DNA from: Deltaproteobacteria bacterium
Lineage (GTDB): Bacteria > JAGRBM01 > JAHCIT01
Direction: 5' to 3'
Assembly (NCBI GenBank): GCA_026129095.1
Contig: JAHCIT010000014.1
Location: forward strand, 1 to 43,297
Length of the DNA stretch: 43,297 nt
The notes below the pieces were generated by a model, which worked only from the letters and a program-made list of their open reading frames with translations, was not told the DNA's origin and did not search any database. A program made the position numbers and the translations under genes. Below are positions 41,557 through 43,297 of this stretch, piece by piece. How positions within the stretch are numbered: position 1 is the stretch's first letter; each line of letters opens with the position of its first letter.

Positions 41557-43297
41557 GTGTCAGTTGATCAGGTCCGCGTCGGCTCCGGCGGCGAGGGAAC
41601 TGGAGCAGACGACGGTCCGGAGACAGGTGTCAGTTGATCAGGTCCGCGTCGGCTCCGGCGGCGGCAAAAACAGTTTGCAGCGGCCCCGATCCCGTGGTGT
41701 CAGTTGATCAGGTCCGCGTCGGCTCCGGCGGCCCGTCCTCCGTGGAGGCCCCTGCGTCCAGCTCGACGTGTCAGTTGATCAGGTCCGCGTCGGCTCCGGC
41801 GGCGATCAGTGCCAGCTCGCGGGGGTGCCGTTCTTCTTGTGTCAGTTGATCAGGTCCGCGTCGGCTCCGGCGGCGGGAGTTGATGGTAGTGGCCCCTGTG
41901 CTAGTCGGGTGTGTCAGTTGATCAGGTCCGCGTCGGCTCCGGCGGCATTTCGCCCTTCAGGGTGGCGATCAGCCCGTCGTCGTGTCAGTTGATCAGGTCC
42001 GCGTCGGCTCCGGCGGCACCGGATTCTGATCCCCTTCGACGTGATGAGCCGCCTGTGTCAGTTGATCAGGTCCGCGTCGGCTCCGGCGGCGTCGACGAAG
42101 GAGAACGCCGTCCACGTCCGGGCGTGTCAGTTGATCAGGTCCGCGTCGGCTCCGGCGGCTCTCCCGGCGATGCTGCACGCGATACGGACACAGGGTGTCA
42201 GTTGATCAGGTCCGCGTCGGCTCCGGCGGCGGTCGCCCACCTGATCGCCCACGGGCAGTGGGACCTGGTGTCAGTTGATCAGGTCCGCGTCGGCTCCGGC
42301 GGCCATCCAGTCCTACCAGCGCGGCGCAGACGGGAAAAGTGTCAGTTGATCAGGTCCGCGTCGGCTCCGGCGGCCTCTACCCCTTTCGTCACGGGTATAC
42401 TCGTAACAAGTGTCAGTTGATCAGGTCCGCGTCGGCTCCGGCGGCGGGCGACGAGCGTGCCGCCGCCGGGCCAGTCGGCGTGTCAGTTGATCAGGTCCGC
42501 GTCGGCTCCGGCGGCGACGGTCGAGGAGCGCGTGTAGCATGTATTGGCGGTGTCAGTTGATCAGGTCCGCGTCGGCTCCGGCGGCACTCGCAACTGGTTG
42601 ATCAGATCGGGCGACATGAAGTGTCAGTTGATCAGGTCCGCGTCGGCTCCGGCGGCGCCGGGAAATCGCCAACAAACGGGAAAAACAAATGTGTCAGTTG
42701 ATCAGGTCCGCGTCGGCTCCGGCGGCCATTTCAACCCGCTTGCGCTGTTTAACGACGAGAAGTGTCAGTTGATCAGGTCCGCGTCGGCTCCGGCGGCGGC
42801 GCCCGGCGTCTCCGCCTCGATCTCCAGGGCGTCCGTGTCAGTTGATCAGGTCCGCGTCGGCTCCGGCGGCTGACACTGGAGCAGATGCACGTGGAGCTTT
42901 CCGTCGTGTCAGTTGATCAGGTCCGCGTCGGCTCCGGCGGCCAGGCGGCGCTCTTCGCCGAGATGCTCGACGGCGGGTGTCAGTTGATCAGGTCCGCGTC
43001 GGCTCCGGCGGCGTTAAACAGCGCAAGCGGGTTGAAATGGGCCTGATAGTGTCAGTTGATCAGGTCCGCGTCGGCTCCGGCGGCGCTCCACAGGTGGACG
43101 GTCAACGTAGCCAATAACGTGTCAGTTGATCAGGTCCGCGTCGGCTCCGGCGGCACTCTATTTCCCATTCACGGCTACGCCTTATTATAGTGTCAGTTGA
43201 TCAGGTCCGCGTCGGCTCCGGCGGCTCAAGAGGCTCCAGATTGGCGAAGCGCCGAAGCTGGTGTCAGTTGATCAGGTCCGCGTCGGCTCCGGCGGCT
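41557..43297. CRISPR. CRISPR array, 25 identical 36-bp repeats, 24 full spacers, cut by window end
   Basis: Repeats start at 41557, 41627, 41697, 41768, 41839, 41911, 41982, 42055, 42124, 42195, 42268, 42339, 42410, 42480, 42550, 42621, 42691, 42762, 42835, 42906, 42977, 43049, 43119, 43190 and 43261. Each is 36 bp, begins GTGTCAGTTGATCAGGTCC and ends GGCTCCGGCGGC, and I see no variant. Spacers are 33-37 bp, mostly 34-35, and none is duplicated, but two overlap on opposite strands. There is no strong internal palindrome. No cas gene is in the window, so type and direction cannot be fixed; 36-bp repeats with ~35-bp spacers fit several type I, III and V systems. Several spacers read as open frames, fitting phage or plasmid coding targets. 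Confidence 0.98.

Follow-up and report, generated by a model that had tools for sequence, protein, structure and literature searches.

Spacer acquisition by type V-B CRISPR-Cas has been described in E. coli, where a 5' ATTN motif is selected with no 3' preference and the modal spacer length is 35 nt (PMC9419969). Spacers drawn from overlapping stretches of one element have already been described in Sulfolobus (pMGB1; PMC4390879). Here we analyzed a window of 43,297 nucleotides, which is contig C14 (JAHCIT010000014.1, positions 1 to 43,297) of a 3.67-Mb genome assembled as Deltaproteobacteria bacterium (GCA_026129095.1). The window ends inside a type V-B array of at least 44 repeats, in which two spacers of opposite orientation share 27 nt. 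We assign a probability of about 0.87 to the reading that the system made two acquisitions, from opposite strands, at the same 44-bp site or at homologous sites of two related invaders.

The CRISPR array occupies positions 41557–43296 of the window (minus strand), where 25 repeats of 36 nt, all identical, enclose 24 complete spacers and the contig end interrupts the series. It continues on a second contig, C17, which carries 19 copies of the same repeat from C17:29157 on and stops within a spacer. In guide-RNA sense the repeat is GCCGCCGGAGCCGACGCGGACCTGATCAACTGACAC, read leftward in the window. From the repeats common to the two contig ends we infer a C14–C17 junction, bringing the array to at least 44 repeats and at least 42 complete spacers. 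The two contig ends (window:43297 and L012:1968-1983) both fall within the array, and the gap between the contigs may conceal further repeat-spacer units. Spacer length has its mode at 35 nt (16/42 spacers; mean 34.9). The leader-distal left neighbor of the array (window:36950-41467) is a mobile-looking stretch. It encodes a serine integrase (phrog_95, 191 bits), a protein with an ASCH domain and another, of 197 aa, that weakly matches a phage minor head protein.

The array belongs to a type V-B (Cas12b) CRISPR-Cas system. The C17 locus encodes a Cas12b ORF of 1493 aa (NF033949, 852 bits against a cut-off of 150; PADLOC Cas12b, 703 bits), a 565-aa Cas4-Cas1 fusion (NF049935, 613 bits) and a 96-aa Cas2 (PF09827, 59 bits). 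By motif, the RuvC triad of Cas12b is intact (SVDLGHR, D804; IENLQNY, E1221; QADLNAA, D1374), and the regions around all three residues align with solved C2c1. Between cas2 and cas12b (L011:9356-10239, minus strand) lie two opposite-strand genes of 119 aa and 175 aa, neither with a PHROG or PADLOC match; the 175-aa protein appears nucleotidyltransferase-like by eye (motif GGAAMALGFGSRDSTYDID), and the two could be a toxin-antitoxin pair. A second CRISPR system in the genome (contig C9, L013:7639-13053) encodes a Cas9 of 1240 aa (RuvC_III, HNH), a Cas1 of 309 aa and Cas2, and is probably type II-C; its short array has 6 repeats (AGTGTAACTGACTGGAGCCTGCCCGCAACTCAAAAC), and no spacer shares 10 nt between this array and the V-B array.

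On C17, cas4-cas1, cas2 and cas12b lie directly before the first repeat and point at the array. The 332-base stretch between cas12b and the first repeat contains an anti-repeat (GTTTATCAAGTCCGCGTC, C17:28919) that matches the repeat complement at 16/18 positions, compared with at most 15 in 200 shuffles of the stretch and 14 at the best site elsewhere in 15 kb. A dimer predicted between the RNA of this stretch and the repeat contains the repeat/anti-repeat helix as well; the putative tracrRNA region has no Rfam match. An energy-only anti-repeat search was dominated by GC content, and an identity search was used instead. The cas genes and the anti-repeat adjoin the C17 end of the array and place the leader there, so that in the window transcription runs leftward. 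The original prediction had raised leftward transcription in an aside, noting that its proposed motif would then sit on the 3' side, and the C17 gene order and anti-repeat bear this direction out.

The pair consists of spacers 17 (42727–42761, minus strand) and 21 (43013–43048, minus strand), separated by the three spacers 18–20. In window sense, spacer 17 reads CATTTCAACCCGCTTGCGCTGTTTAAC followed by GACGAGAA, and spacer 21 reads GTTAAACAGCGCAAGCGGGTTGAAATG followed by GGCCTGATA; their guide-RNA senses are TTCTCGTCGTTAAACAGCGCAAGCGGGTTGAAATG and TATCAGGCCCATTTCAACCCGCTTGCGCTGTTTAAC, respectively. The initial 27 nt of spacer 17 (42727–42753) and of spacer 21 (43013–43039) are exact reverse complements, for which the chance expectation among 42 unrelated spacers of the same composition is ~4e-11. 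Across all 42 complete spacers this is the sole pair to share more than 11 nt. A repeat finder returned 32 nt at 97% for the pair, the extra complementary bases being repeat-end letters. The two guides are complementary over the 27 nt, with a duplex predicted at −48 kcal/mol. Merging the spacers gives a locus of 44 nt (TATCAGGCC-CATTTCAACCCGCTTGCGCTGTTTAAC-GACGAGAA) from which both are recovered without mismatch. The spacer numbering, the count of 24 spacers, the 27-nt opposite-strand identity and the end coordinate of spacer 21 (43048) in the original prediction were all right. Its claim that a single target locus gave rise to both spacers, in opposite orientation, is likewise supported by the exact match and the 44-nt merge, read as one locus or one homologous locus.

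In guide sense, the shared 27 nt form the PAM-distal (3') part of both spacers. The unshared 5' ends are TTCTCGTC in spacer 17 (42754–42761, minus strand), comprising the spacer 17 seed and the 3' flank of the spacer 21 protospacer, and TATCAGGCC in spacer 21 (43040–43048, minus strand), comprising the spacer 21 seed and the 3' flank of the spacer 17 protospacer. Since the array is read leftward, the flanks that the pair exposes are the 3', PAM-distal ones. The PAM positions of both protospacers lie outside the 44 bp, and the pair displays no PAM.

A search for the merged 44-nt locus, proposed with the original prediction, gave no match in any collection. With blastn, 50,697 phage and 72,556 plasmid records yielded chance-level matches only (E 0.6–9). 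The locus was absent from 2.9 million IMG/VR contigs searched with an exact 19-mer core and codon-degenerate patterns in three open frames, where the best identity from the pattern searches was at most 27/44. One degenerate pattern run against 84,980 genomes produced 8 matches, taken as chance because they reached at most 24/44 and lay in short open frames of 15–42 codons. In the genome itself and in 20 other genomes searched as relatives (1 from the same order, the rest from the same domain only; the phylum has 2 genomes in the set), the locus occurred nowhere outside the array. From the spacer translations, the locus plausibly reads YQAHFNPLALFNDE, for which no relative was found; two other frames are also open. 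Searched individually, all 42 spacers reached a best E of 8 against phages and two weak matches against plasmids, of which just spacer 4 held up, and two leader-proximal spacers had no match in IMG/VR.

Spacer 4 (41804–41838, minus strand) matches the conserved DQCxxAGVPFFFK motif of DUF5131/phage Gp37-Gp68 genes. The window plus strand, antisense to the guide, encodes DQCQLAGVPFF at this position, and 31/35 positions are identical in a gene on a Pseudonocardia plasmid and likewise in an IMG/VR contig. Spacer 4 could thus be assigned to a DUF5131/Gp37-Gp68 gene target, and was the sole spacer with assignable homologous targets. As an independent test of the PAM side, we compared 18 homologues, none an exact protospacer, drawn from phages and plasmids, one viral contig and the genome itself. 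Their guide-sense 5' flank was TTG in 15, TTC in 2 and TTA in 1, that is, TTN in 18/18. These 18 count as one TTN observation (chance ~4–6%), because an invariant lysine codon dictates the TT. Other weak spacer matches (E 0.1–10, chance level) show no TTN, one example being spacer 10, whose match on a Pseudonocardia plasmid has GAT as its flank. Together with the literature, the homologues of this one spacer suggest TTN as the PAM. The own-genome DUF5131 gene (contig C8:205872-206582; L035) matches spacer 4 at just 26/35.

We propose that Cas4-Cas1 and Cas2 would have taken spacers 17 and 21 on separate occasions from opposite strands, either at the same 44-bp site of one invader or at sites that are homologous between two related ones. 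Both protospacers would be bounded on the outside by a PAM of their own, with the two PAMs facing each other, predicting the arrangement 5'-TTN-[44 bp]-NAA-3'. With insertion at the leader end, on the cas side, spacer 17 would be the older of the pair and spacer 21 the younger by four positions. Judging from known Cas12b cut positions, Cas12b with either guide would cut within the shared stretch.

The original prediction took the exposed flanks for the PAM side and GYC for the PAM. The agreement of the two flanks at −1, −3, −6 and −7 that prompted this is indeed present in window sense; as a motif it is not significant, because at this base composition four or more of eight positions agree by chance with P = 0.14. 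The placement of the cas genes and the anti-repeat locates the leader at the opposite array end, on C17, and makes the exposed flanks 3', a side on which type V-B has no motif (PMC9419969). In the targets homologous to spacer 4, the flank at the proposed position is CGC, CTG, CGA or AGA in window sense, and GYC occurs in 0/18. A GYC PAM is therefore very improbable. An alternative to two acquisitions would be that the pair is an assembly artefact or a duplication within the array: C14 and C17 both end in the array, and repeat units at their junction may be missing or collapsed. The two spacers are, however, opposite in orientation, differ at their outer 8–9 nt and lie within the contig, each flanked by intact repeats, and such a pair is not producible by array duplication or inversion, so that the chance of an artefact is negligible.

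With two acquisitions from one site, or from homologous sites, as the preferred reading, the question becomes what brought the second spacer there. Interference-driven or primed acquisition, in which spacer 21 was taken because spacer 17 already targeted the site, would fit the leader-end insertion order, in which spacer 21 is the younger, and the rarity with which a few spacers from one large element overlap by 27 nt or more at random (on 50 kb, ~0.3% with 5 spacers and 1.5% with 10). From a 5-kb element, however, the same overlap is expected by chance in 3–14% of cases for 5–10 spacers and in 14–48% for 10–20. In E. coli, priming was detected neither for type V-A nor for type V-B (PMC9419969), the array holds no other overlapping pair, the target of this one was not found, and a guide 17 cut, placed from known Cas12b cut positions, would land inside the spacer 21 protospacer. 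We regard such guidance by the first spacer as unlikely, and the wider proposition, that the V-B system of this lineage re-acquires spacers at sites targeted by an older spacer and leaves opposite-strand overlaps as the trace, as quite unlikely. Double sampling could instead have been favored, without any such guidance, by a local hotspot of acquisition or by a target element of small size. This would refine the main explanation, and we hold it as a tentative possibility: in E. coli, V-B spacers are acquired unevenly, with hotspots associated with DNA breaks (PMC9419969), and the probability of an overlap varies strongly with the size of the element. One pair cannot separate chance, a hotspot and first-spacer guidance.

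The opposite-strand pair is thus real, yet a fairly ordinary event in a V-B array. Fixing the array direction corrects the GYC guess and yields a sharp prediction for the unseen target, 5'-TTN-TATCAGGCCCATTTCAACCCGCTTGCGCTGTTTAACGACGAGAA-NAA-3'. A further outcome is the description of a large Cas12b system whose array is long, with at least 42 complete spacers, from a phylum represented by 2 genomes in the set. If the pair is non-random, it would offer a lead on V-B acquisition at already-targeted sites, where laboratory work saw no priming.

Compared with known systems, the Sulfolobus pMGB1 case (PMC4390879) differs in that it concerns archaeal systems with CCN PAMs and a known target element. 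Against the type I-G adaptation module (Cas4g/Cas1g, Cas2g), the effector alongside here is Cas12b, and no I-G effector gene was recognized among the ORFs read at the C17 cas locus. The closest likeness is to type V-B, as represented by the Cas12b of Alicyclobacillus acidoterrestris and by the adaptation described in PMC9419969: Cas12b, a fused Cas4-Cas1 and Cas2 occur together, with an anti-repeat beside the array, 36-nt repeats and a spacer mode of 35 nt. Unlike the A. acidoterrestris system, this one has a larger Cas12b (ORF of 1493 aa versus 1130 aa in the 5u30 chain). The nearest solved protein is the 1496-aa C2c1 endonuclease of PDB 9kln/9klo/9klp/9klq, with 9kln the closest chain; the Cas12b described here is not identical to it, and the two align over almost their full length (1044 bits).
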